A stretch of DNA of 29,588 nt from a virus. Shown here one piece after another: positions 8,207 to 25,794 of the stretch (within the stretch, counting starts at the first letter, position 1; each line of letters starts with the position of its first letter). Location of the stretch: the IMG/VR virus record IMGVR_UViG_3300031977_000080, positions 1 through 29,588 of that record, one strand, 5' to 3'. The notes below the pieces were generated by a model. It was not told the DNA's origin. It saw only the letters and a program-made list of their open reading frames with translations, and searched no databases. Position numbers and translations under genes: made by a program.

Positions 8207-8214
8207 TATATTTG
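8207..8214 (+). promoter_or_regulatory. Host-type promoter -7 box just before the 8219 gene
   Basis: TATATTTG fits TAnnTTTG and sits in the 21-base gap before the ATG at 8219. The expected transcription start, a few bases downstream, would coincide with the ATG, giving a leaderless mRNA. This internal promoter would boost the 8219 gene and the sigma-like gene that follows. Confidence 0.55.
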
Positions 8215-8575: not shown

Positions 8576-9131
8576 AGTATATCAGGCAGTAGCAGATTGT
8601 AGAGAAACATTTGTAGAAATGTCTTACACCTACTCGCAAGATATAAACGAAATAGAAGAAGCAGTACAAGAATTAATGTTATACTTTATGCAGATGAACC
8701 CTGCAATATTAAAAGATATATATAATAAAGATGGCAAGAAAGGATTAATAAGATATGGTGCAGTAGTATTAAGAAGAAGCTATACATCAGTAAGAAGTCC
8801 TTTTTATTATAAATACAATAAATACTATACTAACTTAGATGCACAGGCAAGTAGTATAACATACGACATAACAGAAACAGGAGAAATGTCAAACGAGAAA
8901 CATCTATACAATATACCTAATCCTGAAGAATACCAACAATGGCAAAAGCTAGAACAAATAGACAAAGCATTAGAAGATGTATATTGGTATGATCGGGATG
9001 TATTTAAGTTGTACTACTACGAGGGTAACACATTAACAGGACTAGCAAAGAAAACAGGCATAAGTAGAAATAGCTTGTTTACGACTATAGACAAAGTAAG
9101 AGAATATCTAAAAGAAAAATTAGATGATTAA
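8568..9131 (+). CDS. Sigma-70-like RNA polymerase sigma factor
   Basis: 187 residues with the two-domain layout of ECF-like sigma factors. An N-terminal region 2-like part (DINEIEEAVQELMLYFMQMN, about 25-44, and the basic IRYGAVVLRRSY, about 61-72) is followed by a loop, then a C-terminal region 4-like HTH (YYYEGNTLTGLAKKTGISRN, 149-168, then SLFTTIDKVREYLKEKL). Such proteins bind core RNA polymerase and select promoters. It is the only transcription factor of this type in the genome. The phage has five late sites with a non-host consensus (see 11091, 12853, 22026, 23511, 25781), which makes it the natural candidate for their recognition. Sequence divergence in region 2 means function is inferred. 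Confidence 0.65.
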   Translation: MNKVYQAVADCRETFVEMSYTYSQDINEIEEAVQELMLYFMQMNPAILKDIYNKDGKKGLIRYGAVVLRRSYTSVRSPFYYKYNKYYTNLDAQASSITYDITETGEMSNEKHLYNIPNPEEYQQWQKLEQIDKALEDVYWYDRDVFKLYYYEGNTLTGLAKKTGISRNSLFTTIDKVREYLKEKLDD

Positions 9132-10706: not shown

Positions 10707-11089
10707 TGAAATTTGTAATTCACGATAAAAAAGATAAGATGCAATTAGTAAACTATTTAAAAGATATGGAAAGTCCATATACTGTAGAGGTTAAGAAACA
10801 CAGAAACACAAGATCAAACGTACAGAACAATTACTATTGGAAGTGTATAGTGCAAGTATTAGCTGAGGAGTTAGGATTTTTTAATGATGAAATGCATGAT
10901 GCATTAAAGGTTAAGTTTAGTTCTGAATGGCAAATGATACAGTATAAAGATAAAACTATTCCTATGCACAATATAACAAGTACAACTAACATGAATACTA
11001 AAGCATTTGAAAATTATTGTGAACAAATAAGAATATGGGCATTATCTGATTTAGGGATAAGATTAATGCTGCCAAATGAATACCAATAA
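10706..11089 (+). CDS. ninB: NinB (Orf)-like recombination mediator
   Basis: 127 residues. RSNVQNNYYWKCIVQVLAEE (36-55), then DEMHDALKVKF (61-71) and TTNMNTKAFENYCEQIRIWA (93-112) fit the lambda NinB/Orf family, where the R-S-x-x-Q-N-x-x-Y-W core is followed by a long helix. Orf binds single-stranded DNA and SSB and helps load recombinase in the Red or RecF pathways. Here a NinG-like nuclease and an SSB-like protein are encoded nearby, but no RecT or Red-beta annealing protein is seen. It is the last gene before the first late promoter motif. Confidence 0.8.
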   Translation: MKFVIHDKKDKMQLVNYLKDMESPYTVEVKKHRNTRSNVQNNYYWKCIVQVLAEELGFFNDEMHDALKVKFSSEWQMIQYKDKTIPMHNITSTTNMNTKAFENYCEQIRIWALSDLGIRLMLPNEYQ

Positions 11090-11090
11090 T

Positions 11091-11102
11091 TTCTATTATA
11101 TA
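11091..11102 (+). promoter_or_regulatory. Phage late promoter motif copy 1, before terS
   Basis: TTCTATTATATA begins 2 bases after the ninB-like stop. The ATG of terS starts exactly 14 bases after the motif start, as at 12853 and 25781. The upstream element at the corresponding distance (11071-11080, GCCAAATGAA) matches ATCAAACAAA at 6 of 10 positions and lies inside the preceding coding sequence. The short distance implies a leaderless or nearly leaderless mRNA. Confidence 0.6.
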
Positions 11103-11104
11103 CT

Positions 11105-11464
11105 ATGGACAAACGAACAGAACGAACACAAACTAACAAAGAAAAATTATTAGATGCTTTAGAGTTATCACTAGGAATAGTTACTGAAGCTTGTGTTAAG
11201 TGTGGTCTTAGTAGAACCCAACATTATAAGTGGTATAATGAAGATGAAGAATATCGTAAAGCAGTAGATAGTATAGATAATAAATTTATTGACTTTGCAG
11301 AAAGCCATTTAAAAAAACAAATAGAGAATGGCAGTACACAAGCTACTACATTCTTTCTAAGGACAAGAGGTCGTAAGAGAGGTTATAATGAGAAGCAAGA
11401 GATAGATTTAACATCAGGTAATGAACCTATCAAAATAAATATAAATCTTGGAGATAAATCCTGA
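11105..11464 (+). CDS. terS: Small terminase subunit
   Basis: 119 residues. An N-terminal HTH (KLLDALELSLGIVTEACVKC, then GLSRTQHYKWYNEDEEYRKA) is followed by helices (FIDFAESHLKKQIENGS) and a C-terminal basic/Thr part (RTRGRKRGYNEKQEIDLTSG). This is the usual layout of small terminases, which bind the packaging site and stimulate the large subunit. It is directly followed, with a 17-base overlap, by terL. The packaging site (pac or cos) is not identified. Confidence 0.85.
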   Translation: MDKRTERTQTNKEKLLDALELSLGIVTEACVKCGLSRTQHYKWYNEDEEYRKAVDSIDNKFIDFAESHLKKQIENGSTQATTFFLRTRGRKRGYNEKQEIDLTSGNEPIKININLGDKS

Positions 11465-12758
11465 ATTTACAAGCACACAAAAACAAGCACTTAAATACTT
11501 ATTTGATAACAAGACAAAAGAAGTATTATTTGGAGGTGCAGCAGGTGGTGGTAAATCTTGGGTAGGTGTAAGCTATTTAATTCTTATGTGCTTACAATAC
11601 AAAGGCACAAGATACTTAATGGGTAGGTCTAAGTTAGATGCACTAAAGAAAACAACACTAAATACTTTCTTTGAAGTATGTAATGCTTGGAACTTAAAAT
11701 CAGGAGAACACTATACCTTTAATGGCTCTAGTAATATAATTAGCTTTTACAATAAAAGCGAGATAATACTAAAAGACCTATTCTTATATCCTTCAGACAG
11801 AAACTTTGATAGTTTAGGTTCATTAGAGATTACAGGTGCTTTTATAGATGAAGCAAACCAAATAACTGAAAAGGCAAAAAACGTAGTAGCTTCAAGATTA
11901 AGATATAAATTAGATGAAAACAATCTAATACCTAAATTACTAATGACTTGCAACCCTGCAAAGAATTGGGTATATACTGAATACTACAGACCTGCTAAAG
12001 ACAACACAATAAAACCTTACAGGAGATTTATACAATCATTAGTAAAAGACAATCAGTATATATCACAACATTATGAGAAGCAATTATTTGAATTAGATGA
12101 ACTAAGCAAACAACGACTACTTTATGGTAATTGGGAATATGATGCTACTGATGATAGCTTAATAGATTACAATGCTATAGTAAGTTTATTTAATCAACAA
12201 GGACAAGATGGAGAAAAGTATATAACTTGTGATGTAGCACGTTTTGGTAACGATAGAACAGTTATTATGCTTTGGAAAGGGTTGCATACTATAGAGATAC
12301 AAACTTTGCTTAAATCATCTGTAAATGAGGTTGTAGAGCAAATTAAGAAATTACAACAAAAATATCAGGTCAATTTAAGAAACATAATAGTTGATGAAGA
12401 TGGCGTAGGTGGTGGTGTAAAAGATTATCTTAGATGTCAGGGCTTTGTAAATAATTCAAGACCAATAAAAGGAGAGAACTATCAAAACCTTAAAACACAA
12501 TGTTATTATAAGTTAGCCGACTTAATAAATAAATCACAAATAGGTATAAGCTGCACAGATGTAAATATTAAGAGTTATATAATTGAGGAGTTAGAGCAGG
12601 TAAGAACTAAAGATGCAGACAAAGACAATAAACTACAGATACTTTCTAAAGACAATGTAAAAGCTATACTAGGTCGTTCTCCTGATTATTCAGATGCTTT
12701 AGCTATGCGTATGTATTATGAAATAGATAGTAACTATGGCAAGTATTATGTACAATAA
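11448..12758 (+). CDS. terL: Large terminase subunit
   Basis: 436 residues, starting from a TTG codon at 11448 (LEINPEF read as MEINPEF) inside the 3' end of terS; no ATG precedes the ATPase core, so the alternative start is needed. Walker A is GGAAGGGKS at 29-37, Walker B FIDEANQ at 132-138, and coupling motif TCNP at 167-170. The RNase H-like nuclease has D262 (CDVARFGND), the VDEDGVGGG segment near 315-323 and the C-terminal PDYSDALAMR near 412-421. These match headful or cos motor proteins that translocate and cut DNA. A stem-loop follows the stop. Confidence 0.97.
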   Translation: MEINPEFTSTQKQALKYLFDNKTKEVLFGGAAGGGKSWVGVSYLILMCLQYKGTRYLMGRSKLDALKKTTLNTFFEVCNAWNLKSGEHYTFNGSSNIISFYNKSEIILKDLFLYPSDRNFDSLGSLEITGAFIDEANQITEKAKNVVASRLRYKLDENNLIPKLLMTCNPAKNWVYTEYYRPAKDNTIKPYRRFIQSLVKDNQYISQHYEKQLFELDELSKQRLLYGNWEYDATDDSLIDYNAIVSLFNQQGQDGEKYITCDVARFGNDRTVIMLWKGLHTIEIQTLLKSSVNEVVEQIKKLQQKYQVNLRNIIVDEDGVGGGVKDYLRCQGFVNNSRPIKGENYQNLKTQCYYKLADLINKSQIGISCTDVNIKSYIIEELEQVRTKDADKDNKLQILSKDNVKAILGRSPDYSDALAMRMYYEIDSNYGKYYVQ

Positions 12759-12760
12759 AA

Positions 12761-12791
12761 AAAAGATGTAACTCTAGGAATCACATCTTTT
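12761..12791 (+). terminator. Stem-loop terminator after terL
   Basis: AAAAGATGT (12761-12769) pairs with ACATCTTTT (12783-12791) across a 13-base loop, 2 bases after the terL stop. The A-rich left arm and T-rich right arm make it bidirectional in form. It probably separates the terminase transcript from the tail operon. Confidence 0.7.
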
Positions 12792-12852
12792 AAAAACAAA
12801 AACCTTAAGAAAACGCAGCAAACATAACGATTTTAAACTAAATAACAAATAA

Positions 12853-12864
12853 TTCTATTATATA
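12853..12864 (+). promoter_or_regulatory. Phage late promoter motif copy 2, before tail chaperone
   Basis: TTCTATTATATA with the ATG exactly 14 bases after its start. Upstream at 12833-12842 is TTAAACTAAA, a 6/10 match to the ATCAAACAAA element at the same relative position. It lies in a 108-base gap following the terL terminator, so it is well placed to start the tail operon. Confidence 0.65.
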
Positions 12865-12866
12865 TT

Positions 12867-13511
12867 ATGCAAGTAAACATTAAGAAGGATGGTAAGAAAA
12901 ATACTTACAATCTAATTAACAGTTGGGATGATGTAACACTTGAAAAATGGGCTAAACTTATTGATAGTAATAATAAGTCAAAGACCAAAGAAGCATTAGA
13001 TACGATAACTATGTTATCAGACATACCGAGAAAACTTGTAAAAGAGTTGAGTATAAATGATGTATCTAATATTCTAAATAAAATAGCTGAGTTGCAAAAC
13101 AAAGCTAAGAGCAGGTTTAAGAAGGTAATAAAAGTAGATGGAGTAGAGTATGGTTTCCATCCTGATTTATCTGAGATAACACTTGGAGAATATGCAGATA
13201 TAGAAACCTACATACAAGCAGGGATAGAGAATAACTTAGCTAAGATGATGGCAGTTCTTTATAGACCAATAGTAGAGAGAAATGGTAAATACTATACTAT
13301 AAAGAGATATGATGGAAGCGAGGTTAGAATGAGGGCAGAAAAGTTTAAGAAGATGAAAGCAGTAGATGTAAATAGTTGCTTGGTTTTTTTTTGGACTTTA
13401 GGCAACGAACTATCAACGATTTTGCCGTTGTATTTGATGGAACGGATCAGGGAAGTGAAACAATCACTACAGATGAAAAGTTCGCACAAAAATGGGGATG
13501 GTTTGGAGTAA
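12867..13511 (+). CDS. Tail assembly chaperone, short (zero-frame) product
   Basis: 214 residues. Helical protein with a domain around VDGVEYGFHPDLSEITLGEY (about 91-110) and IETYIQAGIENNLAKMMAVL (about 112-131), as in tail assembly chaperone-type proteins of Bacteroidota phages. The zero frame ends KNGDGLE at 13511. The -1 frame overlaps its 3' end and continues to 13636. This is the G/GT layout in which a fixed fraction of ribosomes shift frame to make a longer form; both forms coat the tape measure during tail assembly. It is located right after terL, far from the tape measure (20600), which is unusual. Confidence 0.7.
   Translation: MQVNIKKDGKKNTYNLINSWDDVTLEKWAKLIDSNNKSKTKEALDTITMLSDIPRKLVKELSINDVSNILNKIAELQNKAKSRFKKVIKVDGVEYGFHPDLSEITLGEYADIETYIQAGIENNLAKMMAVLYRPIVERNGKYYTIKRYDGSEVRMRAEKFKKMKAVDVNSCLVFFWTLGNELSTILPLYLMERIREVKQSLQMKSSHKNGDGLE
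13385..13391 (+). other. Programmed -1 ribosomal frameshift site (T TTT TTT)
   Basis: The zero frame reads CTT GGT TTT... resolved as TTG GTT TTT TTT TGG around 13380-13394, giving the ideal heptamer T TTT TTT at 13385-13391 inside a run of nine T. A -1 shift continues TTG GAC TTT AGG and stays open to 13636. The -1 frame has no ATG near its beginning (only TTG at 13376), so it is reached by shifting rather than by independent initiation. About 10 bases downstream GCAA (13402-13405) can pair with TTGC (13422-13425) and CAACG (13414-13418) with CGTTG (13426-13430), an H-type pseudoknot arrangement. Confidence 0.8.
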
Positions 13512-13636
13512 TGTATAGATTGACAAATGGAGATATAAGTAAATTAGGTGCTATAACAAATATGAACTTATACGAATGTTTAACTTGGCTAACTTATGAA
13601 GTTGATTTAAACGAAACTAAAAAAGTTAAAAGATGA
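13391..13636 (+). CDS. Tail assembly chaperone, frameshift extension (fused to 12867-13391)
   Basis: Read in the -1 frame after the slip site, this adds 81 residues (LDFRQRTINDFAVVFDGTDQ, then KFAQKWGWFGVMYRLTNGDI, ending NETKKVKR) to the first 175 residues of the short form, giving a 256-residue fusion. The added part replaces the 39-residue zero-frame tail. In other phages this extension (the T part of GT) contacts the tail tube protein. The next gene starts 4 bases inside the stop (13633). Confidence 0.75.
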   Translation: MDFRQRTINDFAVVFDGTDQGSETITTDEKFAQKWGWFGVMYRLTNGDISKLGAITNMNLYECLTWLTYEVDLNETKKVKR

Positions 13637-14127
13637 CACATTTTAAGAATTATAATAACACAATAGATACTCTAAAGCAGTTAGGTAACAATCACTATCA
13701 AATCAAAACTGTTACAACAGGAGATATATTTGAAATTGACTTAGAGAAGAATACTTTATATCCATTAATGCACATAAACCCTATCAATGCAGTAGCACAA
13801 AATAATCAAATGACTTTAAGTTTTCAAATATTTGTTATGGACATAGTTTTTCCTGATGAAAGTAATGAACAAGAAGTATTATCAGATTGTTTAAGTATCT
13901 GTAATGACTTAATCGGTACACTAAAGAATGGAGAGAGTTTATATTTGTCTAATGCAGATCAGGGAGAAAGTCCTGCATACTTTACAGAAGGAGATATTAC
14001 AATAGAGCCGTTTACAGAAAGATTTGACAATTCAGTAAGTGGATGGGTGTTTACGTTACCAATAATAATTGAGAATGACTATAACACTTGTATAGCACCA
14101 CAACAAACAGTATATGCAGGTAAATAA
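13633..14127 (+). CDS. Tail completion/terminator-like protein
   Basis: 164 residues, beta-rich. It has NNTIDTLKQLGNNHYQIKTV, TLYPLMHINPINAVAQ, then a helix after SNEQEVLSDCLSICNDLIGTL and a final strand pair ending FTLPIIIENDYNTCIAP. The alternating strand-helix-strand pattern with a middle helix resembles phage tail terminator or head-tail joining proteins, which are small rings of about this size. The link is structural impression plus position between the chaperone and the gp10-like gene; no signature motif was seen. Confidence 0.5.
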   Translation: MTHFKNYNNTIDTLKQLGNNHYQIKTVTTGDIFEIDLEKNTLYPLMHINPINAVAQNNQMTLSFQIFVMDIVFPDESNEQEVLSDCLSICNDLIGTLKNGESLYLSNADQGESPAYFTEGDITIEPFTERFDNSVSGWVFTLPIIIENDYNTCIAPQQTVYAGK

Positions 14128-14195
14128 TGTTTAAGATAAAAATAGGAAAATTAACAATACAACTAATACCACCGAAGATTACTTATGAACTATGA
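14127..14195 (+). CDS. Possible 22-residue ORF linking two tail genes
   Basis: The ATG at 14127 overlaps the upstream stop (TAATG) and 22 codons end in TGA at 14193, overlapping the next start by 11 bases. It fills the 57-base gap exactly, with the coupling signals used elsewhere in this operon, and reads MFKIKIGKLTIQLIPPKITY plus two residues. It may be a real micro-protein or only a translation bridge. Confidence 0.35.
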   Translation: MFKIKIGKLTIQLIPPKITYEL

Positions 14196-14535
14196 AGATA
14201 TATTAGAGAAGCTAGAAGAAATTAGTATAGGACTAGAAAGCTATAATGACTATCCTGAAAGTGCTAGTAACAATGCAAAGAGAGCAATAGAATGGAAAGA
14301 AAAAAATGGTAGTGATTGTGGTACTAGAGTAGGATGGACTAGAGCAGGACAATTAGCAAGAAAAGAAAATATTAGTAGAGACACTATAGCAAGAATGGCT
14401 AGTTTTAAAAGACATCAACAAAATAAAGATGTACCATATTCAGAAGGATGTGGTGGTTTAATGTGGGATGCTTGGGGTGGTACTTCAGGTATAGAATGGG
14501 CAATAAATAAATTAAAAAAAATAGATAATAAATAA
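14185..14535 (+). CDS. Conserved Bacteroidota-phage domain protein (GCGGLMWDAWGG)
   Basis: 116 residues. Strong conserved-looking core: SNNAKRAIEWKEKNGSDCGT, then RAGQLARKENISRDTIARMA and SEGCGGLMWDAWGGTSGIEW. I know this module mainly as a domain attached to other proteins in Bacteroidota phages; here it stands alone within the tail operon. Its basic helix with RKENISRDT and the following GG-aromatic segment resemble, in order and spacing, the C-terminal part of this phage's portal (RKEDISRMS...YKGGGNCHHFW), which may mean a shared fold. Function unknown. Confidence 0.65.
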   Translation: MNYEDILEKLEEISIGLESYNDYPESASNNAKRAIEWKEKNGSDCGTRVGWTRAGQLARKENISRDTIARMASFKRHQQNKDVPYSEGCGGLMWDAWGGTSGIEWAINKLKKIDNK

Positions 14536-14536
14536 T

Positions 14537-14980
14537 ATGGCAGATTTAACAACAACAGTAACAGAAAGTGTTACATTAAATGGTGCAGTAAGAGGCACGA
14601 CTAATACAGTAACAACAACTGGTATAAATAACGTATATGAAAGAATAGTAACTTGTACTTCAGCACAAACTACACACTTAGCAACTTTTGATTCTAACTC
14701 TTATGGTTCAGCAGTACAGATAGATAAAGAGGATGTTAGATATATTAGAGTAACTAATTTAGATCAAACTAACTCATTAGAACTAGCAGTAGTTGGTGCA
14801 GCTACTAATTACCAAGTATTACTTAATGCAGGTCAATCTCATATACTTTGTGCAGCAGATGATGTAATGTTAGCAGAAGAAGGTACTACACCTAGCTTTG
14901 GTACTATGTCTGATTTAAGAAGCTTACAAGTAAATCCTTCGGCAGACTTAGATGTAGAAATATTTGTAGCTAGTGTATAA
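14537..14980 (+). CDS. Structural protein, unknown (tail module)
   Basis: 147 residues, almost entirely beta-strand and Thr/Ser/Ala-rich (TTTVTESVTLNGAVRGTTNT, then LATFDSNSYGSAVQI, ending VEIFVASV). It has few charged residues, is weakly acidic, and lacks a signal peptide. Its composition is that of a virion surface or decoration protein. It starts 1 base after the preceding stop and overlaps the following gene's ATG by one base. No family recognised. Confidence 0.6.
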   Translation: MADLTTTVTESVTLNGAVRGTTNTVTTTGINNVYERIVTCTSAQTTHLATFDSNSYGSAVQIDKEDVRYIRVTNLDQTNSLELAVVGAATNYQVLLNAGQSHILCAADDVMLAEEGTTPSFGTMSDLRSLQVNPSADLDVEIFVASV

Positions 14981-15489
14981 TGGAAGCATTAGAACGATAC
15001 TTAAATAGTTTCGGTAAAAGTGTTATAAAACAAGCTAGAAGTAATTTAACTAGAAAGAAAAAGAATGTTAGTAAAGAATTATATAACTCCTTAGAGTTTA
15101 AAGTTGTAAAAACTACAGAAGGTTTTAGTGTGCAATTCTTTATGGCAGATTATGGTACTTTTGTAGACAAAGGAGTATCAGGTACTAAAAAGATAAATGA
15201 ATACACTACTTATGATGGCAGGAAAGTTGAAAGTCCATATAAATACAGGGGTAAAAGACCACCTATGAAAGCATTTGATAAATGGATAATACGTAGAGGT
15301 ATAGCACCTAGAGATGAGCAGGGTAAGTTTATTTCACGAAAAAGTTTACAGTATCTAATAGCTAATAAAATATACACACAAGGAATACAAGGTATTAGTT
15401 TTTTTCAAAGACCATTACAATTAGGATTAAAGGATTTTTACAACGAAGTAGGTAACGCAATAAAAGAAGATATAATAAACACGATATAA
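14980..15489 (+). CDS. HK97 gp10-like tail completion protein
   Basis: 169 residues, basic. An N-terminal helix (LNSFGKSVIKQARSNLTRK) is followed by VQFFMADYGTFVDKGVSGTK near residues 51-70, the D-Y-G-x-F-V-D-x-G-V pattern typical of HK97 gp10-like proteins. A basic middle (YRGKRPPMKAFDKWIIRR) and C-terminal helices follow. These proteins sit at the head-tail joint and help complete the tail. The gene is in the expected neighbourhood, after the terminator-like gene. Confidence 0.7.
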   Translation: MEALERYLNSFGKSVIKQARSNLTRKKKNVSKELYNSLEFKVVKTTEGFSVQFFMADYGTFVDKGVSGTKKINEYTTYDGRKVESPYKYRGKRPPMKAFDKWIIRRGIAPRDEQGKFISRKSLQYLIANKIYTQGIQGISFFQRPLQLGLKDFYNEVGNAIKEDIINTI

Positions 15490-15490
15490 G

Positions 15491-16930: not shown

Positions 16931-19752
16931 TGAGTGTACAACTAATATTATACCCACAGGATTATCAGGGAGTTTACCAATATAACTCTAGTGTAATTAA
17001 TACAAACCTAGTAGCAGATGGTGTAGGCTTTAACACTATACAAAATCACACAGGATATAGCTCTACTACTAGTAATCCAGCTTTTGATGCAGTAACTAAT
17101 GATGCACCAATAACTAACTGGAAAAAATTTAGGTCTTTTGGTGGTACTTCTTATGCAGATGTAGATTTTCCAATTAAGATAGGTACGATAGCACCTAAAT
17201 TAAGATTTAGAGCAGCATCAGGAGGTGTAAATTCTAGTAGTGGTGTATATCAAAGAATAGATAACTTAGTAATAGGTGCAACCTATCAACTTAAATTTAG
17301 AATAACAAATGCTGCTTCAGGTGGTTTTTTATTTATAGGTAATGATAGTTATGGTAACAATTTAGGAGGTGGTGGTGCTACTGCTATATCCACATCTACT
17401 ACAGGATATAAAACATTTGACTTTACGGCAGTAAACTCATCAGAAGTATTAATATTAGATTACCAAAATGATGGTGCAGATTATATAGATGTAAGAAGGA
17501 TAAGTATTAGGGGTGCAGGTGCTACACCACCTTTAGTATTTACTGACTTAGCAGATGGTCAAGTAATATGCGACTTATACCAAGATGAAGATATACCATT
17601 AAGCTTATCTATTGACAACTTTAAAAATGCAGCCGAAAAAACACAAAGCTACTCTAAGGACTTTAACTTACCTGCTACTAAAAGAAACAATAAAATATTT
17701 ACACAAATATTTGAAATAACGAACTCTACACAAATAGATGGAGTATTAGCACAAAATACATTCAATCCTTATGTACAAACTAAGTGCGTATTAAAACAAG
17801 ATGGCTATATTTTATTTGAAGGGTTTTTAAGGCTTATAGATATAGTAAACAAAGAAGGAGAGATTAGCTATAATGTTAATTTATATTCAGAAACTATAGC
17901 ATTAAAAGATGTGCTAGAAAATAAGAAATTATCTGATTTAGATTTAGATGAACTAGAACACGATTATAACAAAACAAATATAAAGGCAAGTTGGGAAACA
18001 ACAGGGCTTCCTTTAACCAATTCTTTACCTGTAAATTCATTTGCTTACAAATCTTCTTTAGGTGCAAACAATACAGATGTATTAAAATACCCTTTTGTTG
18101 ATTGGACAGGTAATATTAGTTTAACTGCTCCTTCAGGAACTAATGCAGTAGATGGGCAGCCTGTATTAAATAGATTAGAAGATGCTTTTAGACCTTTTAT
18201 AAACTGTAGATATTTATTTAGAAAAATAATGAATGATGCAGGATTTACTTATTCATCTGATTTTTTAGATGGCTCAAACCTAAGCACAGGAGATGTAGAT
18301 TTTACTAAGCTTTATATGGACTTTAATTTTACAGGAGAAGTTCCTAGTGAAACAAAACAAGGTGTATATAATAGATTCGGACAATCTTTACCTGATTATC
18401 TTTCGGCTACAACTTTTAAAAATGTAAACTTATCATACAACGAATATTCAGATGAGATGGGTTGGGATGATGTTAATTATAAGTTTGTAGGACAATCAGA
18501 TAATTCAGGTTATAAAATAGAGTATAGTGTAAGATTTACTTGTATAACAAATGATACCTTAACCTTTAGGGGAGTAAAAAAAGATAGTGGAGGTAATATT
18601 ACAGATGTATATAATTTAACATCAACTGCATATACTACTACAGTTTACGTAGTAGAATCAGGTGTTATATTTACTACTTTAGATACTAACGAAACATTTG
18701 AACTTCAATTTAGAAGTACAACGGCAGGAACTTTTAAACAGTATAATAGTACAGTAGCACCATTCCCTAGTACAGTAGATGTAACTGTAGGATTAACAAC
18801 TGTAATAGATTCTACTTTGCTTAATTCAAAGCGAGGCGAGATAGGACAATGGGAGTACGTTAAATCGTTTTTTACAATGTTTAACTTAGTTTCTATGCCT
18901 GATCCTAATAATACACGAAATATACGTATAGAGCCGTATAATAAGATATTTTTTGAAGATACGACAGGGCTAAGTTTAGCAGATAGAAATATAAAACACG
19001 ATTGGACAGATAGAGTAGATGCTACTGAAATAAAATTAACACCTTTAGAATTAAAGAAAAAAACAATATTCAAATATGAAGAAGATAATGAAGATTATCC
19101 TTTCACTTTGTATAAAAATGGTACTGGTGGCTCTTTATATGGTTCTAAAATATTCAATTCTCATCTTTTATTTGGCTTTACATTACTTACTGGAGAAGAA
19201 GAAATAACTGCTTCTCCTTTTGCAGCTACAGTTGTAAAACCATTATTTGATAGATTCCCTGACTTTATAGTACCTGCAATATTTTCATCTAATGATACTC
19301 AAAGTGCTTTTGAAGGATTTGATAATGCACCTAGAATATTATTTGATAATGGTAAGAAGCTATCGGCTAATTCTTATTATATACCTGCACAAAATGGGCT
19401 ATCTAGTGAGAATCAAACCTATTTTGGACAGTTTACTCATTTATCAGAAGTAAGTCCTACTACTGTAGATACAAGCGACTTAAATTTTGAATCATCACAA
19501 TTAATAAATCCTGTAGGAAGTCCTTTTATACCTGTAAATAACTTATTCAATATATATTGGCAGCCTTACTATAATGAGTTATACAATGCAGATACTAGAG
19601 TTATGACAATTAAGGTAAATCTAAGTCCTGCTGACATTAATACATTTCAGTTTAATGAAAAAGTAATGATAAAAAACAGATTATATAGAGTAAATAAAAT
19701 TGATTACAAACCTAGAGATTTATCAACTGTAGAATTTATATTAATACCATAA
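16930..19752 (+). CDS. Large tail/baseplate protein with N-terminal carbohydrate-binding-like domain
   Basis: 940 residues. It starts with a short strand (MSVQLILYPQDYQGVYQY). Residues ~25-200 then form a separate jelly-roll-like domain (IDNLVIGATYQLKFRITNAA, then GYKTFDFTAVNSSEVLILDY and YIDVRRISIRG), the pattern of CBM_4_9-type glycan-binding modules. From ~205 a distinct structural region follows (VICDLYQDEDIPLSLSIDNF, TQSYSKDFNLPATKRN) and runs to a C-terminal part ending PRDLSTVEFILIP. I read it as a baseplate-hub or distal tail protein into which a binding domain has been inserted near the N-terminus. No lytic motif was seen. Confidence 0.6.
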   Translation: MSVQLILYPQDYQGVYQYNSSVINTNLVADGVGFNTIQNHTGYSSTTSNPAFDAVTNDAPITNWKKFRSFGGTSYADVDFPIKIGTIAPKLRFRAASGGVNSSSGVYQRIDNLVIGATYQLKFRITNAASGGFLFIGNDSYGNNLGGGGATAISTSTTGYKTFDFTAVNSSEVLILDYQNDGADYIDVRRISIRGAGATPPLVFTDLADGQVICDLYQDEDIPLSLSIDNFKNAAEKTQSYSKDFNLPATKRNNKIFTQIFEITNSTQIDGVLAQNTFNPYVQTKCVLKQDGYILFEGFLRLIDIVNKEGEISYNVNLYSETIALKDVLENKKLSDLDLDELEHDYNKTNIKASWETTGLPLTNSLPVNSFAYKSSLGANNTDVLKYPFVDWTGNISLTAPSGTNAVDGQPVLNRLEDAFRPFINCRYLFRKIMNDAGFTYSSDFLDGSNLSTGDVDFTKLYMDFNFTGEVPSETKQGVYNRFGQSLPDYLSATTFKNVNLSYNEYSDEMGWDDVNYKFVGQSDNSGYKIEYSVRFTCITNDTLTFRGVKKDSGGNITDVYNLTSTAYTTTVYVVESGVIFTTLDTNETFELQFRSTTAGTFKQYNSTVAPFPSTVDVTVGLTTVIDSTLLNSKRGEIGQWEYVKSFFTMFNLVSMPDPNNTRNIRIEPYNKIFFEDTTGLSLADRNIKHDWTDRVDATEIKLTPLELKKKTIFKYEEDNEDYPFTLYKNGTGGSLYGSKIFNSHLLFGFTLLTGEEEITASPFAATVVKPLFDRFPDFIVPAIFSSNDTQSAFEGFDNAPRILFDNGKKLSANSYYIPAQNGLSSENQTYFGQFTHLSEVSPTTVDTSDLNFESSQLINPVGSPFIPVNNLFNIYWQPYYNELYNADTRVMTIKVNLSPADINTFQFNEKVMIKNRLYRVNKIDYKPRDLSTVEFILIP

Positions 19753-20597
19753 TGGAATACAAAAAAGGATTTAAAATAAAACCAAAATATGTTACTAGTA
19801 TAGGTAACGTAATATTTACTGATGGTACAAATGATGTAGAGCCAAATCAACTAACTTGTGAAGCTTATGGATATACTTATAATGAAGCTACAGGAACTTG
19901 TACTGCTTTTGATTATAATACTAAAATAACCAATACATCAGACAATATTTATAATATAGTAAACGGAGAACTTAACACAACAAACATAGGAACTGAAAAT
20001 ACATCTATATTAGGTACTAATAATACATCTAGTGGTAATAATCTTAATGTATTTATATCAGGTAAGAATCATTTAGTAGATAATGGATTAAATGACTCTG
20101 CAATTATAGGGGGTTCATTTGCACAAGCTAGAAATCAGGGAGAAGTGGTTATGGGTGGTGGTGGTTTCGGTACTACCTTAAGTTTAGCACAAGTATCTTA
20201 TGTACAACAATCAGGAAACACAGAAGATGATACTGAAACTGCTTTACTAACTCAATATTTACCTACTACATATATACAAAAAGTAGCTAATTGTATTATG
20301 GGTTTTGAGGCTCATGTTATTGGAGTTAATACAGGTGTAGGTGTTGGTACGGCAGGAGAATATGGCTATTTTAAACTTACAGGAGGTGTAGAATTTAGTA
20401 ATGGATTGGCTTCTACTTACCATGTAGATGTTCATGCAGTAGTGCCACATGGGCATAGTGGATTAAATCTAACTGGTACTGTAAAGGATGTTACGGCAAC
20501 ATCTTTCGGTGTTTATGTAACAGGAATAGCAGAAACATATATACAATGGACTGCCGAAGTAAAACTATGGCAAAATAAAATAACACAAACAATATAA
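19752..20597 (+). CDS. Tail fibre/spike-like protein with Asn-Thr-Gly repeats
   Basis: 281 residues. The N-terminus has CEAYGYTYNEATGTCTAF. Residues ~65-130 show repeats of the form (N/G)-(T/S)-x-I-x-G-x-N-x-T (TNIGTENTSILGTNNTSSGN, then FISGKNHLVDNG and SAIIGGSFAQARNQGEVVMG), as in trimeric left-handed beta-roll stalks of adhesins. A compact beta domain follows (YLPTTYIQKVANCIMGFEAH...). This suggests a trimeric fibre with a beta-roll stalk and a C-terminal tip. Host binding is inferred. It ends 2 bases before the tape measure. Confidence 0.6.
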   Translation: MEYKKGFKIKPKYVTSIGNVIFTDGTNDVEPNQLTCEAYGYTYNEATGTCTAFDYNTKITNTSDNIYNIVNGELNTTNIGTENTSILGTNNTSSGNNLNVFISGKNHLVDNGLNDSAIIGGSFAQARNQGEVVMGGGGFGTTLSLAQVSYVQQSGNTEDDTETALLTQYLPTTYIQKVANCIMGFEAHVIGVNTGVGVGTAGEYGYFKLTGGVEFSNGLASTYHVDVHAVVPHGHSGLNLTGTVKDVTATSFGVYVTGIAETYIQWTAEVKLWQNKITQTI

Positions 20598-20599
20598 TT

Positions 20600-22003
20600 A
20601 TGGCAGACAAGACATTAGAAATGGAAGTTAAGTCAAATGTTGGCAAAGTTGCAGAAGATACAGAAAAATTAGGTAAAGCAACGAAAGAAGCACAGTCAGG
20701 TATAAAAAAACTATCTGCAAGTTTTGGTACATTAGCTAAAGCGACAGGTATAGTATTTTTATTAAACAAAGCATTTGAAGTATTCCAAGAAGTATTCAGA
20801 CAAAACCAAAAAGTAGTAGATATATTTAATACTGCATTTGAAGTTTTAAGTATAGCTTTTAATGATTTCTTTAAATTCTTAGAAAGTAATATAAATACTG
20901 TTTCAGGTTTTATGGATAAAATATTCGGTAATGAAGTAGTACAAAATGTAATAGATTTCGGAAGGACTTTAAGTATAGAAGTAATTACTAGAATAAAAAA
21001 CTTAGTACAAGGTATTGGTGGTTTAGGATCGGCTTTAGTTAAGTTATTTAAAAAAGATTTTGCAGGTGCAAGTGAAACTGCTAAAGCAGCAGTAAAAGAC
21101 CTTACAGAAGTTGTAACAGGTAACGTAGTAGAAACTGTAGAAATGGAAAAAGCTATTACTAAGGTTACTGATAAAATAAAAGATTATGCTAAGTCTACAA
21201 TAGAAGGTGCAAAAACATTAGTAGGATTAAGAAAAGAAAGTGAGTTAGCAGCAGTTAAGGTACAAGGACTTATAGAGGAGTACGATAGACAAGCAGAAAA
21301 ACTAAGACAGGTTAGAGATGATGAAACTAAGACATTTGAAGAAAGAATAGCAGCTAACGAAGAATTAGGTAGGGTTCTTAAAGAGCAAGAAGAAGAAATG
21401 CTAAAACTAATTGATATTAGAATTAAGGAAGCTGAATTAGATGTAGAAAAAAATAATAGTGTTGAAAATCAAATTAAATTACAAGAAGCATTAAATGAAA
21501 AGAAAGCAGTAGAAGCACAAATTACAGGTTTTCAATCTGAGCAGTTAGTAAACCAAGTATCATTACAAAAAGAACAGACACAATTAGCTTTAGAAAACAC
21601 AGAAGCACAACTACAAGCATATAGCGACCTAGCAGGTGCATTAAGTAGTTTAGCAGGAGAAAATAAAGCACTAGCAGTAGCACAAGCAATTATAGATACT
21701 TATGCAGGTGCTAACAAGGCATTTGCACAAGGTGGTGTAACAGGTTTTGTAAGTGGTGCAGCTATTATAGCTTCAGGATTAGCTAATGTTAGAAAAATAT
21801 TAAATACAGATGTAGGAAGTGGTGGTGGAGGTGGTGGCTCAGTACCATCAGAAACAGGAACTCCTGCACCTGAGATGTTAAGTGGTGCGTTTACGTTAGG
21901 TGGTACACCTGAACCACAACCTGTACAGGCATACGTTGTAACAGATGATATGACTAACAACCAAAACAAGTTAGCTAATATCCGTAGAAGGGCTACTATT
22001 TAA
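20600..22003 (+). CDS. Tail tape measure protein
   Basis: 467 residues, long helical protein. A heptad-like N-terminus (VKSNVGKVAEDTEKLGKATK), hydrophobic segments (about 45-60 and about 380-398), a long charged coiled coil (about 205-340) and a Gly-rich linker (GSGGGGGGS) are followed by a proline-rich C-terminus. ALAVAQAIIDTYAGANKAFA, then AAIIASGLANVRKI, is the usual C-terminal block of Bacteroidota phage tape measures. At about 1.5 Å per residue it predicts a tail near 70 nm, short for a siphovirus. A tape measure this close to an adhesin and far from the chaperone is unusual. Confidence 0.8.
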   Translation: MADKTLEMEVKSNVGKVAEDTEKLGKATKEAQSGIKKLSASFGTLAKATGIVFLLNKAFEVFQEVFRQNQKVVDIFNTAFEVLSIAFNDFFKFLESNINTVSGFMDKIFGNEVVQNVIDFGRTLSIEVITRIKNLVQGIGGLGSALVKLFKKDFAGASETAKAAVKDLTEVVTGNVVETVEMEKAITKVTDKIKDYAKSTIEGAKTLVGLRKESELAAVKVQGLIEEYDRQAEKLRQVRDDETKTFEERIAANEELGRVLKEQEEEMLKLIDIRIKEAELDVEKNNSVENQIKLQEALNEKKAVEAQITGFQSEQLVNQVSLQKEQTQLALENTEAQLQAYSDLAGALSSLAGENKALAVAQAIIDTYAGANKAFAQGGVTGFVSGAAIIASGLANVRKILNTDVGSGGGGGGSVPSETGTPAPEMLSGAFTLGGTPEPQPVQAYVVTDDMTNNQNKLANIRRRATI

Positions 22004-22025
22004 AAATCAAATAAATTAATAAATA

Positions 22026-22037
22026 ATCTATTATATA
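22026..22037 (+). promoter_or_regulatory. Phage late promoter motif copy 3, before the head module
   Basis: ATCTATTATATA (11/12 match) with ATCAAATAAA at 22006-22015, exactly 10 bases upstream of the box, matching the layout at 23511 and 25781. The ATG at 22054 lies 28 bases after the motif start, leaving a leader of about a dozen bases. Confidence 0.6.
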
Positions 22038-22053
22038 CTAAAAGATAAAGAAA

Positions 22054-22455
22054 ATGAATAATATAAATCCATTAGGTAAAACTTATAAAGAATATCAAGA
22101 AGAATTAGAAAAGGTAAATTTAGAAAAATCTTATAAAGTAGAATTAGGATTAGCACAAGATTTAGAAAAAGCATTTAAAAAAAGTGATTCATTAGTAAAA
22201 AAATCTAAAAAACTTGTAGATAAAATGGAAAAACTTTTTAAATCTTATAATGACCAAAATCAAAAGTTAATTACTGAAAGAGATGGAGTAGAACAACAAT
22301 TAGCTAGAAATGAAAGATTAATTATAGATGCAAAAAGTGCAGCTAAAGAATTAGGTGTTAATATAAAAGATATTAAGGGTGTTTCTACTTTAGAAGAAAT
22401 AAATAAAGATTTATCTAGAGAAATTAATATGTTAAAATTTCCACAAATAAGATAA
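22054..22455 (+). CDS. Coiled-coil protein in the head module
   Basis: 133 residues, Lys/Glu/Leu-rich with long heptad patterns (YKEYQEELEKVNLEKSYKVE, LVKKSKKLVDKMEKLFKSYN, then VEQQLARNERLIIDAKSAAK), ending with GVSTLEEINKDLSREINML. No other domain. It has its own late promoter motif and lies 1 base before the protease. Candidates are a scaffold-assisting or internal head protein. It resembles in style the C-terminal half of the protease downstream, which is also pure coiled coil. Confidence 0.55.
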   Translation: MNNINPLGKTYKEYQEELEKVNLEKSYKVELGLAQDLEKAFKKSDSLVKKSKKLVDKMEKLFKSYNDQNQKLITERDGVEQQLARNERLIIDAKSAAKELGVNIKDIKGVSTLEEINKDLSREINMLKFPQIR

Positions 22456-22456
22456 T

Positions 22457-23488
22457 ATGAAAAGAAAACCAACTAAAATTATAGAACTAGTAATTTCTGA
22501 TGAAAGCGAAGAATTAACAATAGATGCTATCAGTTTAGTTACAAGCCCTGCAATAGAACAAGATTTTGTATTCTTTGGTAAGGACAAGAACAATCTTACA
22601 CTAGCTAAGATAGATGAGGAGAAAAGAATGCTAGTAAGTCCTGCATTAATACCTAACAAACAAATATTTAGATATGATCCTAATACTGACAGTAATTACT
22701 ATGTATATTTTTCAAAAGAAACAGTAAGACAAGCTAGTGAGTTATATCTAAAGCATAATAATCATCATAAAGCTACATATCAACACGAAGATAGAGTATC
22801 AGGTGTATTAACTATAGAAAGTTGGATAAAAGAAGGCGACATGGATAAATCTAAGCTATATGGCTTTGACTTACCTGATGGTACATGGTTTGTTAAGATG
22901 AAGATAGAGAATGATGAGATGTGGAATAAGATAAAAGATGGAGAACTAAAAGGTCTAAGTATAGAGGGCTACTTTATTAATAAAATGGAAAAAATGGGTA
23001 AACAACAATTTTCAAACGAAGAAATAAGAGAAGCATTTGTTGAATTATTAAATGACAAAAAAATAAAATTAAAAAATTTAGATACTGTTGAAAAAGCAAT
23101 AGCAGAAGCTAATAAAATAAAAAATGTCAAAGATATTGTTAGTAATATTGTAAAAACTAAAAAAACTTATGATACTTTAGGTAAAGAATATGATGCAATA
23201 GAAAAACAATTAAAAAAATTAAATGCTGAACAAGATAAATTATCAAAACCTTTAGGTAAAACAGAAAAAACATTTGATAAATTAAAAAATGATGCAAATA
23301 TGACAAGAAATAAATTAATTGCTACTTATAGTAAAATAGAAAATGCAAGAAATTTATTTACACAAGGTTTAAAAAGATTAGGTGTAACTAAAATGCCACC
23401 TATAATAAAAGAAGCAACTGAAAAATTAAAAAAAATTGACAAAGACCTTGATAATTTAGAAAAAGGACTAAATATATATCTAAATTAA
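22457..23488 (+). CDS. XkdF-like prohead protease fused to a long coiled coil
   Basis: 343 residues. Residues 1-180 fit the Peptidase_S78_2 (XkdF) pattern: AISLVTSPAIEQDFVFF, H110 in YQHEDRVSGVLTIESW, GTWFVKMKIENDEMWNKIKD and GELKGLSIEGYF (162-173), where H110 with S116 or S168 may form the active centre. Residues ~185-343 are a Lys/Glu/Leu coiled coil (DAIEKQLKKLNAEQDKLSK, then KLKKIDKDLDNLEKGL) with a more A-rich base composition than the protease part. In tailed phages such a tail can act as built-in scaffold. The gene precedes the scaffold and capsid genes, as expected. Confidence 0.75.
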   Translation: MKRKPTKIIELVISDESEELTIDAISLVTSPAIEQDFVFFGKDKNNLTLAKIDEEKRMLVSPALIPNKQIFRYDPNTDSNYYVYFSKETVRQASELYLKHNNHHKATYQHEDRVSGVLTIESWIKEGDMDKSKLYGFDLPDGTWFVKMKIENDEMWNKIKDGELKGLSIEGYFINKMEKMGKQQFSNEEIREAFVELLNDKKIKLKNLDTVEKAIAEANKIKNVKDIVSNIVKTKKTYDTLGKEYDAIEKQLKKLNAEQDKLSKPLGKTEKTFDKLKNDANMTRNKLIATYSKIENARNLFTQGLKRLGVTKMPPIIKEATEKLKKIDKDLDNLEKGLNIYLN

Positions 23489-23510
23489 AAATCAAACAAA
23501 TAATAATTAA

Positions 23511-23522
23511 TTCTATTATATA
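23511..23522 (+). promoter_or_regulatory. Phage late promoter motif copy 4, before scaffold/capsid
   Basis: TTCTATTATATA with ATCAAACAAA at 23491-23500, exactly 10 bases upstream of the box. The scaffold ATG at 23535 is 24 bases after the motif start. It is placed to give strong capsid expression. Confidence 0.7.
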
Positions 23523-23534
23523 AAAAAAAGACAA

Positions 23535-24176
23535 ATGGATTTAAAACAACAAATATTAGTAGCACTTGGTCTTGACAAACAAGAAGAAGTGAGTTTAGAG
23601 TTTCAAGCGAAACTTGAAGATGGTACTATAATAGTTTCTACTGCTGATTCATTAGAAGCAGGAGTGGATGTATCAGTTCTTACAGAAGATGGAACAACTA
23701 TGTTACTTCCTGTTGGAGAATACAAGACCGAAGATGGTCAAGGTTTTTCTGTTGAAGAAGAAGGTGTAGTTGCTGAAATCTACGAAGAAGAAGTAGTAGA
23801 AGAAGAAGCTACAAAAGAAACTGAAAAGGAAGAAATGAACGAAGAAATTACTGAAGAAGTTGAAGAAACAGAAGCAGTAGAATTTGATTCGGTTGCTTTT
23901 ATGGATGAAGTTAAATCCGTAGTAACTGATTTAATAGGTAATGTTAATACAGAAATAGAAAACTTAAAAACTGAATTAGCAGAACTTAAGTCAGCAAATG
24001 AAGAATTATCTTCAGAAAAAGAAAAACTATCTGCACAAGTAGTAGAGTTATCAAATGAACCTGCTGCAAAACCTGTAGATATTAATAAATTTAGTGCATT
24101 AGGCAAAGAGCTTTCTAGTAAAGATATTGCTAAAATGTCTAAAAGAGAAAGAATATTATATAACATAACTAAATAA
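23535..24176 (+). CDS. Capsid scaffolding protein
   Basis: 213 residues, strongly acidic. The N-terminal part is beta-rich (VSLEFQAKLEDGTIIVSTAD). A very acidic linker follows (VVEEEATKETEKEEMNEEIT), then a coiled coil (IENLKTELAELKSANEELSS) and a basic C-terminal helix (LSSKDIAKMSKRERILYNIT). An acidic coiled coil with a basic tip next to the capsid gene is the usual scaffold layout, with the basic end binding the capsid protein. It ends 8 bases before the capsid start. Confidence 0.75.
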   Translation: MDLKQQILVALGLDKQEEVSLEFQAKLEDGTIIVSTADSLEAGVDVSVLTEDGTTMLLPVGEYKTEDGQGFSVEEEGVVAEIYEEEVVEEEATKETEKEEMNEEITEEVEETEAVEFDSVAFMDEVKSVVTDLIGNVNTEIENLKTELAELKSANEELSSEKEKLSAQVVELSNEPAAKPVDINKFSALGKELSSKDIAKMSKRERILYNITK

Positions 24177-24184
24177 ATAAAAAA

Positions 24185-25087
24185 ATGGCTTTTACAGTAA
24201 CATCAAATTACGCAGGTAAAGCATTCGGACAATATATTTCGGCTGCTTTAAAAGAGGCAAAATCTCTTGAAGGATTAACTATCCTAGAAAATGTAAAGTA
24301 TAAAGAGAACATTAGAAAAATGGCAGGTTCAAGCTTAGTAGCAGATGCAACTTGTGATTTTACTGATGCAGGTACTTTAGCTTTAACAGAAAAAGTATTA
24401 GAACCAAAAAATCTACAAATCAATGTAGACCTATGTAAGAAAACTTTACTATCAGGGTGGGAAGCAGAAGAAATGAGAGCAGGGGCTTTCAATAGAACTG
24501 CACCAACTTTTGATCAGTATGTATTATCTTACTTTGGAGAAATTATTGCAGATGCAGTAGAAGGTTCTATTTGGCAAGGTGCTGCTGCTTCAGCAGGACA
24601 ATTTGAAGGATTCCAAACTGCTACTACAGGTGCTTTCGCAGTAGATGGTACAGTTGTAGCTTCAAGTGCTACGGCTGCTTATACAGAAGCAAACATTATA
24701 GAGAACCTACAAACTTTAGTAGCTGACATTCCTTCTAATGTATATGGGAGAGATGATTTAAGTATCTACATGAATTGGAAAACTTACAGATTCTACATTT
24801 CTGCAATTTCTACATTAGGATACTTAAATGCTTACAACATGACAGGAGACTACAAGCCTGTATTTGAAGGTATCAATATCCAACCATGTCCAGGTATGGC
24901 AGATAACGTAATGGTAGCTGCTGAAAAATCTAACTTATTCTTTGGAACTGATTTATTATCAGATAACACTAATATTAAAATGTTAGATATGACTGATCTA
25001 GATGGTAGCGATAACTTACGTGTTGTGGCGAAGTTCTCAGGAGGTGTACAAGTTGGAGTTGGTTCTGATATTGTTAACCAATCATAA
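24185..25087 (+). CDS. Major capsid protein
   Basis: 300 residues. An N-terminal segment (FTVTSNYAGKAFGQYISAAL) is followed by VDLCKKTLLSGWEAEEMRAG (80-99) and then a long helix near YFGEIIADAVEGSIWQGAAA. A domain with GRDDLSIYMNWKTYRFYISA follows, and the C-terminus has strands (NLRVVAKFSGGVQVGVG). This matches HK97-fold capsid proteins common in Bacteroidota siphophages. Position after protease and scaffold and before a strong UUCG terminator supports it. No Lys/Asn cross-link motif was checked. Confidence 0.85.
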   Translation: MAFTVTSNYAGKAFGQYISAALKEAKSLEGLTILENVKYKENIRKMAGSSLVADATCDFTDAGTLALTEKVLEPKNLQINVDLCKKTLLSGWEAEEMRAGAFNRTAPTFDQYVLSYFGEIIADAVEGSIWQGAAASAGQFEGFQTATTGAFAVDGTVVASSATAAYTEANIIENLQTLVADIPSNVYGRDDLSIYMNWKTYRFYISAISTLGYLNAYNMTGDYKPVFEGINIQPCPGMADNVMVAAEKSNLFFGTDLLSDNTNIKMLDMTDLDGSDNLRVVAKFSGGVQVGVGSDIVNQS

Positions 25088-25100
25088 TAACTGATTAAAA

Positions 25101-25122
25101 GGGAGTAGCTTCGGCTACTTCC
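25101..25122 (+). terminator. Rho-independent-type stem-loop with UUCG loop after the capsid gene
   Basis: GGGAGTAGC (25101-25109) pairs with GCTACTTCC (25114-25122, one G·T wobble) around a TTCG tetraloop closed by C-G, the most stable tetraloop type. The following sequence TTAACTTT is only moderately T-rich, so it may be a partial terminator or an mRNA-stabilising 3' hairpin for the abundant capsid transcript. Confidence 0.75.
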
Positions 25123-25143
25123 TTAACTTTAAAAATAAATAAT

Positions 25144-25710
25144 ATGTCTTGTAATTTAACAAAAGGAAGAAATATAACTTGTAGAGATACAGTAGGTGGG
25201 ATAAAGGCAATTTATTTCGCACAGTTTGATGAGGTTGCTTCTTATGTAACTGCATCAGGCGAATTGACTGACTTTGACTTAGGTGCTTCTGATGACATAT
25301 ATAAATACACTTTAAAGAGGGGTACTGCTTCTTGTACAGAAACTATTACAGGTTCTAGCGAGAATGGTACAGTATTTTATACTCCATCAGTTCAAATAAT
25401 GTTACACAAATTAACAAAAGAAGATCAAAACCAAGTAAAACTATTAGCTTCTAATAGATTGGTTATTTTCTTAGAATTAAATGAAGTATTGACTGCTAAC
25501 AATCACAATGTATTATTAGCTTTAGGATTAGAAAATGGTATGGAACTAAATTCAGGTACTAATGCAACAGGTGCTGCTTTTGGTGATATGAATGGTTACA
25601 CTTGGACTTTTGATGGTATGGAAAGAGATCCAATGGTAACTGTAGCTGACTATACTACTACTCCATTAGATAATGCTGCTTTTACTTATCAGTCAATAGT
25701 AACTTCTTAA
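25144..25710 (+). CDS. Major tail tube protein
   Basis: 188 residues, beta-rich. It opens with NITCRDTVGGIKAIYFAQFD, contains YTLKRGTASCTETITGSSEN, a helical segment LHKLTKEDQNQVKLLASNRL, and GMELNSGTNATGAAFGDMNG, and ends TFDGMERDPMVTV. This is the usual arrangement of strands and one helix of a gpV-type tail tube protein. It is flanked by two strong UUCG hairpins, typical for an abundant structural gene. It lies downstream of the capsid rather than beside the tape measure. The call is from fold pattern and context. Confidence 0.65.
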   Translation: MSCNLTKGRNITCRDTVGGIKAIYFAQFDEVASYVTASGELTDFDLGASDDIYKYTLKRGTASCTETITGSSENGTVFYTPSVQIMLHKLTKEDQNQVKLLASNRLVIFLELNEVLTANNHNVLLALGLENGMELNSGTNATGAAFGDMNGYTWTFDGMERDPMVTVADYTTTPLDNAAFTYQSIVTS

Positions 25711-25731
25711 TCATTGTTTTTCATATTTCTT

Positions 25732-25760
25732 AAAGGGCTACTTCGGTAGCTCTTTTTTTT
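25732..25760 (+). terminator. Rho-independent terminator with UUCG loop after tail tube
   Basis: AAAGGGCTAC (25732-25741) pairs with GTAGCTCTTT (25746-25755, one G·T) around TTCG at 25742-25745, followed by a continuous T tract to 25760. This is a textbook intrinsic terminator, and a late promoter motif begins just downstream. Confidence 0.9.
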
Positions 25761-25780
25761 ATCAAACAAAAATGACTTTT

Positions 25781-25792
25781 TTCTATTATATA
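25781..25792 (+). promoter_or_regulatory. Phage late promoter motif copy 5, after the tail tube terminator
   Basis: TTCTATTATATA with ATCAAACAAA at 25761-25770, exactly 10 bases upstream of the box, and the ATG at 25795, 14 bases after the motif start. It follows directly on the intrinsic terminator, so it must start a new transcript. Confidence 0.75.
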
Positions 25793-25794
25793 GT

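Follow-up and report, generated by a model that had tools for sequence, protein, structure and literature searches.

Here, we analyzed a recurrent promoter-like motif in a viral genome, IMG/VR record IMGVR_UViG_3300031977_000080, whose whole stretch of 29,588 nucleotides (nt; positions 1 to 29,588) is called the window throughout. Five intergenic sites on its plus strand are probably the late promoters of a circular 29.5-kb relative of flavophages. They would be read by a sigma factor of the phage, itself made early by the host holoenzyme, and most of the resulting mRNAs would be leaderless. A first-pass annotation of the window had proposed the five sites as a phage-specific promoter class; it overlooked both the start-codon-fused geometry of the motif and the phage's own sigma-like gene.

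The predicted late promoter motif and its geometry

The predicted late promoters and an adjoining terminator are located as follows.
11071–11102, plus strand: late promoter 1; -35-like GCCAAATGAA at 11071–11080, -10 TTCTATTATATA at 11091–11102; predicted +1 is the A of ATG 11105 (terminase small subunit)
12833–12864, plus strand: late promoter 2; -35-like TTAAACTAAA at 12833–12842, -10 TTCTATTATATA at 12853–12864; predicted +1 is the A of ATG 12867
22006–22037, plus strand: late promoter 3; ATCAAATAAA at 22006–22015, ATCTATTATATA at 22026–22037; predicted +1 at about 22040, 14-nt leader to ATG 22054
23491–23522, plus strand: late promoter 4; ATCAAACAAA at 23491–23500, TTCTATTATATA at 23511–23522; predicted +1 at about 23525, 10-nt leader to ATG 23535
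25761–25792, plus strand: late promoter 5; ATCAAACAAA at 25761–25770, TTCTATTATATA at 25781–25792; predicted +1 is the A of ATG 25795
25732–25755, plus strand: intrinsic terminator directly before late promoter 5, ranked first of 17 terminator-like matches

All five -10 elements lie between genes at the positions given by the first-pass annotation, four of them exact and the one at 22026 with one mismatch, and the intrinsic terminator that had been noted before one of them was confirmed, at the last site. With the A-rich ATCAAAYAAA box included 10 nt upstream of the -10 element, the five sites have, in order, 3, 3, 1, 0 and 0 mismatches to the composite; the 22006 site has no mismatch if the first -10 base may be W. 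At 11071, where the -35 match is weak, the box lies within the last codons of the upstream gene and is thus constrained by coding. As had been stated, the host -7 box TAnnTTTG, the mark of Bacteroidetes sigma-ABfr promoters, is missing from the five late sites and was found at 8207 (TATATTTG), which qualifies as such a promoter by this box, and near 4615 (TATATTTG). A standard sigma-70 promoter scan of the window gave a hit count below that of shuffled sequences. Just 5' of late promoter 2, an AT-rich hairpin (12761–12791) was called as a minus-strand terminator and may work on either strand.

Scanning the window for the composite of -35 and -10 boxes returned 6 matches at up to 3 mismatches, compared with 0.04 expected from shuffles. 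The sixth match, at 18365, is on the minus strand within a gene, has 3 mismatches and resembles a chance hit. Taken by itself, the 12-mer was only modestly enriched when 2 mismatches were allowed (39 found, 26 expected). A 38-column matrix constructed only from sites of related phages recovered exactly the five window sites (27–46 bits), with the next best place in the window at 3.3 bits and the best of 40 random genomes at 13.8; as the training sites came partly from close relatives, the absolute scores are inflated, but the gap to background is not.

Next, the motif was counted in 157 related loci, which were picked by terminase or sigma similarity without using the motif; the counts include the window, and the loci were not dereplicated. 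The first-pass annotation had expected hits between rather than inside genes, and this is what the relatives show. On the coding strand, the 12-mer (at most one mismatch) occurs at 260 intergenic and 12 genic positions, compared with 33 intergenic and 107 genic positions on the opposite strand. The -35/-10 spacing is at the modal register in 156/157 distinct sites. The proposed -35 consensus ATCAAAYAAA holds for the leadered sites, whereas YMAAMYRAA fits better across the relatives. We also read the sequence upstream of orthologues of the genes behind the window sites without using the motif, in a pool that partly consists of loci fetched by it. CTATTATAT stands upstream of most orthologues of the genes behind late promoters 2 (145/169), 4 (106/108) and 5 (71/74), of 10/24 orthologues at a further window-site gene and of 55/140 orthologues of the terminase small subunit, a position at which intervening genes are common. 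Repeated, intergenic, on the coding strand and ahead of late genes, the sites have the features of a late promoter class.

The position of the motif relative to the start codon is equally constrained. In its commonest layout, TTCTATTATATA-N-T-ATG, it ends exactly 2 nt 5' of the start codon (164/260 sites), and a further 31/260 sites end 4 nt 5' of it. In the window, the sites do precede late genes as claimed, but three of them (at ATG 11105, 12867 and 25795) end 2 nt from the ATG, and the other two end 12 and 16 nt from it. In-frame stops exclude an upstream start codon for both 11105 (TAA at 11087) and 12867. A purine stands 14 nt downstream of the first -10 base in 21/21 distinct sequences with an ATG distance of 4 and in 28/31 with a distance of 5 or more. 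As the purine is kept where the ATG is displaced, this position is the likely transcription start site, which at most sites would be the A of the ATG. Such a start would put TATTAT at about -11 to -6, a normal promoter geometry, and would yield mRNAs without a leader or with a leader of 1–2 nt. Judging from this fit, most late mRNAs should be leaderless and the others should have very short leaders. The same -35/-10 pair also occurs, at the same spacing, 10–32 nt upstream of other start codons.

Outside of phages the arrangement is rare. Across 84,980 bacterial and archaeal genomes, the composite promoter followed by ATG was found 6 times, in a scan that demanded the leaderless form and which leadered host sites would thus escape; the same scan of viral contigs gave at least 120 stretches. 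One of the six cellular matches lies on a phage contig with the sigma gene inside a Pseudooceanicola metagenome-assembled genome (MAG). A single unrelated locus accounts for four more, with copies in a Dehalococcoidales MAG and in three MAGs of Flavobacteriales, of which one is labelled Cryomorphaceae; the remaining match is elsewhere. The Pseudooceanicola contig, a relative with sigma gene and late promoters, was probably placed there by a binning error. The four copies share a near-palindromic element, GCATATTTTCTATTATATAATATGCC(ATTTAAGAAAGGAACAAGCG), which opens an open reading frame (MPFKKGTSGN...) in two of the MAGs and a truncated copy of it in the other two; one copy lies on a 251-kb contig. 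No sigma homologue was found in these four MAG genomes. Altogether, the intergenic bias on the coding strand, the retention at orthologues, the terminase and structural genes downstream and the near-absence from cellular genomes make a phage-specific late promoter class, as first proposed, the best reading of the motif.

The sigma-like protein and its putative early operon

Upstream of the late genes, the window contains the following elements of a putative early operon.
8207–8214, plus strand: host-type -7 box TATATTTG, 4 nt 5' of ATG 8219; predicted leaderless promoter, host-driven, for the operon with the sigma gene
8219–8575, plus strand: conserved protein of 118 amino acids, candidate sigma partner, overlapping the start of the sigma gene; 212 homologous loci
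8568–9131, plus strand: candidate phage sigma factor of 187 amino acids; sigma-2-like helical domain (about residues 1–75), disordered linker, sigma-4-like helix-turn-helix domain (about 119–187)

On its own, the 187-amino-acid protein gave marginal matches to sigma families, with Sigma70_r4 below the curated cut-off. However, all 33 of the 33 aligned homologues matched phrog_36 (transcriptional regulator; best E-value 5.6e-8), phrog_1740 (sigma factor; best 5e-6) and Sigma70_r4 (best 3.5e-4) at E <= 0.1. In each of two AlphaFold models, a disordered linker connects a helical domain at the N-terminus to a helix-turn-helix domain at the C-terminus; with 76 sequences both domains were confidently predicted (means of about 91–96 and 83–89). 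In a Foldseek search of the PDB, the top 50 matches were sigma factors or domains thereof, the best being SigL of M. tuberculosis, an extracytoplasmic function (ECF) sigma factor (4e-4), and matches among viral predicted structures include several proteins annotated as phage sigma-70/RpoE-like. The helix-turn-helix of sigma region 4 is recognisable both from the Sigma70_r4 matches of the homologues and from the fold match of the sigma-4 domain to 3hug_C (root-mean-square deviation 2.6 Å over 68 columns). For Sigma70_r2 there was no sequence match, but the N-terminal helical domain is confident and full-length sigma folds match at weak whole-chain TM-scores. Neither tblastn against annotated phages nor a sequence search of the PDB gave a significant match to the protein. 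With profiles and predicted fold in agreement, 8568–9131 likely encodes a factor of the sigma-70 family.

The gene appears to be under host control. Among homologues of the preceding gene (8219–8575), TAnnTTTG ends 3–4 nt 5' of the ATG in 193/204 cases, and owing to this conserved box the host polymerase should make a leaderless mRNA that carries the sigma gene. This suggests a cascade from the host sigma to the phage sigma and further to the late genes. Family scans of the 118-amino-acid protein gave nothing above cut-off and only a sub-threshold match to Csm2; it is possibly a partner or an anti-sigma factor of the sigma-like protein.

Sigma gene and promoters occur together. The sigma-like gene was found in 24/24 near-complete records, 15 of which had been selected by the motif alone, and the start-fused motif in 23/24, always on the strand of the sigma gene, while a reversed-pattern control gave zero. 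The one record without the start-fused motif, G016, falls into a diverged sigma clade and has four late sites with a TATATA-type -10 box; at its orthologous late sites, the -35 box and the spacing are unchanged where measured. Other variants likewise recur within genomes, with TTACATTATATA at two sites each in L345 and L347 and TTATATTATATA at two sites in L366. On the sigma tree the variant -10 boxes cluster, requiring 6 changes compared with a mean of 15.6 after shuffling. The concerted change of the -10 box within genomes supports a single trans-acting phage factor, although shared ancestry contributes. In one comparison between the window protein and the G016 clade, sigma-2 was 44–45% and sigma-4 58–60% identical; the less conserved sigma-2 and more conserved sigma-4 agree with a -10 box that has changed and a -35 box that has not.

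Proposed mechanism and competing explanations

Regarding sigma activity, timing, start site and leaderless translation, we infer the following course of events. Early in infection, host holoenzyme of the sigma-ABfr type would transcribe the operon with 8219–8575 and 8568–9131 from its TAnnTTTG promoter. The sigma-like protein would bind host core RNA polymerase and direct it to the -35 box (YMAAMYRAA; ATCAAAYAAA at leadered sites) and the -10 box (TTCTATTATATA) at fixed spacing, and initiation at the purine 14 nt after the first -10 base would then give mostly leaderless late mRNAs. The window proteins scanned included none recognised as an RNA polymerase, so that a phage specificity factor on the host core enzyme is the simplest agent.

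Several points weigh against this scenario. The sigma assignment is distant, with a single-sequence E-value of about 1e-3 that lies below Pfam's cut-off, and whole-chain TM-scores reach only about 0.3–0.5; these are low because the relative placement of the domains, joined by a disordered linker, is undefined. Clustering of the variant -10 boxes would also be expected from shared ancestry alone, and the co-occurrence of sigma gene and motif could merely reflect inheritance in one phage family. In addition, the terminase-site promoter is absent within 60 nt of the start codon in 85/140 orthologues.

The alternative that survives best, which we nevertheless consider unlikely, accepts the late promoters as real and takes the sigma-like protein to be an activator or a sigma-appropriating factor (RinA/ArpU-like) that acts together with the primary sigma of the host. 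Small late regulators resembling sigma region 4 are present in other phages, the best PHROG match, phrog_36, is annotated just as a transcriptional regulator, and Q-like and activator families match weakly. However, besides the sigma-4-like domain, the model confidently shows a sigma-2-like one at the N-terminus, and full sigma factors were among the matches of both fold searches. Moreover, the -10 box differs from the host box and varies with phage lineage, as expected of a factor that reads it directly.

That an alternative host sigma factor reads the promoters appears highly improbable. Boxes at about -33 and -10 with fixed spacing would suit any factor of the sigma-70 family, and no phage factor would be needed. 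Yet the six leaderless-form matches in cellular genomes give no sign of a host regulon, and the -10 boxes change in concert within phage genomes. We give still less credence to the element being a translation-initiation or RNA-level signal beside start codons instead of a promoter. A fixed position relative to the ATG at most sites and the absence of Shine-Dalgarno signals in Flavobacteriia (PMC6847099) would favor such a signal, but the same box pair at the same spacing also lies further upstream of other starts, a mere handful of genes per genome carry it and one site directly follows a terminator. Finally, chance AT-rich repeats in a genome of 30% GC, to which the modest enrichment of the 12-mer alone might point, are refuted by the composite scan, the matrix scores, the strand and intergenic bias in relatives and the conservation at orthologues.

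Relation to known systems, gene layout and probable host

It is textbook knowledge that phages can encode sigma factors with late promoters of their own. As with T4 gp55, a small phage protein of the sigma family would redirect host RNA polymerase to an AT-rich late -10 box. T4 late promoters (TATAAATA) lack a -35 box and require the sliding clamp and gp33, whereas the window sites have another -10 and a conserved -35-like box at fixed spacing and mostly touch the ATG; homologues of the clamp or of gp33 were not recognised in the window phage. The sigma cascades of the SPO1 type (gp28, gp33/34) are similar in that early transcription by the host sigma yields a phage sigma with a new promoter class. 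SPO1, however, is a large phage of Firmicutes, while the window phage has 29.5 kb, is a phage of a phylum without Shine-Dalgarno translation and has start-codon-fused late promoters. Bacteroidetes sigma-ABfr promoters (TTTG/TAnnTTTG) resemble the late sites in the distance of the TA from the start, which is nearly equal, and the phage sigma operon appears to use their box; the late sites differ by having TATTATATA in place of TTTG and a strong -35-like box. In Flavobacterium johnsoniae, transcription starts 4–5 nt downstream of the -7 element and, unlike at the late sites, mRNAs are mostly leadered, with leaders of more than 10 nt in 87% of mapped transcripts (PMC6847099).

The closest parallel in layout is provided by the Nonlabens (Persicivirga) phage P12024S. 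Seven of its genes (at 179, 3031, 5412, 21280, 23961, 25201 and 26802) have a AAAACAAA-like box about 34 nt before the ATG and a CGTTAATA-like box ending 3–4 nt before it, and CGTTAA at -12 occurs 5 times compared with 0.037 expected. It also encodes a sigma-like protein (20595–21074) above Pfam's cut-off for Sigma70_r2. P12024S thus shares the promoter layout and a sigma-like protein of its own with the window phage, but its -10 box (CGTTAATA) is another one and its sigma-like protein is not recognisably close; a profile comparison of the window sigma with P12024S_33 gave only a weak C-terminal match (probability 6%). In Flavobacterium phage 11b, Cellulophaga phage phi10:1 and Polaribacter phage P12002L, neither the window motif in its form nor, by an unbiased start-anchored 6-mer search, any comparable motif was found, so that the arrangement is not universal. 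Leaderless phage mRNAs with transcripts starting at the start codon are cited for lambda and P2 in PMC4633059; these are isolated cases, whereas here the arrangement would be a repeated rule for the late program of one family.

Neither phage sigma cascades nor leaderless mRNAs are new in themselves. What appears new is the combination of both as the rule for late genes in an abundant family of Flavobacteriia-type phages: the literature searched, which left most subscription papers beyond reach, held no description of it, nor of a phage sigma with its own late promoters in small Bacteroidetes phages. The family carrying this putative late switch is widespread and marine and probably infects Flavobacteriia. 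A more doubtful, though possible, extension is that sigma factors driving the entire late program from start-codon-fused promoters arose independently in several phage lineages that infect Flavobacteriia, with leaderless late mRNAs translated unlike most host mRNAs. If true, such independent systems would amount to a combined transcriptional and translational takeover by the phage. In practice, the promoter class offers a predictive annotation tool for a very common group of marine viruses, and the matched pair of sigma and promoter could be orthogonal in Bacteroidetes. P12024S would serve as a cultured system for the question of whether phages exploit leaderless translation in a phylum largely without Shine-Dalgarno signals.

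The gene layout fits a complete-looking phage. As the first 41 bases (1–41) recur exactly at the record end (29548–29588), the record closes as a circle of about 29.5 kb, with the genes on one strand. According to protein family scans, the region of about 4.6–11.1 kb holds genes for replication, recombination and modification, and packaging and structural genes extend from 11.1 kb around the circle to the portal at 0.1–2.3 kb. The terminase shares 53–54% identity with its counterparts in Flavobacterium phage 11b and Cellulophaga phage phi10:1, and the portal 33% with that of the Nonlabens phages P12024S/L. Given this likeness to flavophages, the phage probably infects a member of the Flavobacteriia. 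A megablast search of the late region against known phages matched nothing, and a terminase search across cellular genomes gave no relative. The late block includes the following genes.
11105–11464, plus strand: terminase small subunit, opening the late block (phrog_4044, phrog_24579)
11448–12758, plus strand: terminase large subunit (family and similarity matches)
22457–23488, plus strand: probable head maturation protease, second gene after late promoter 3 (phrog_3017, phrog_34096)
113–2323, plus strand: portal protein, closing the late block on the circular map (family and similarity matches)

Within the replication region, the protein encoded at 5554–6105 shows a weak match to the C-terminal, origin-binding helix-turn-helix of DnaA and adjoins a replication initiation protein (6102–6716).

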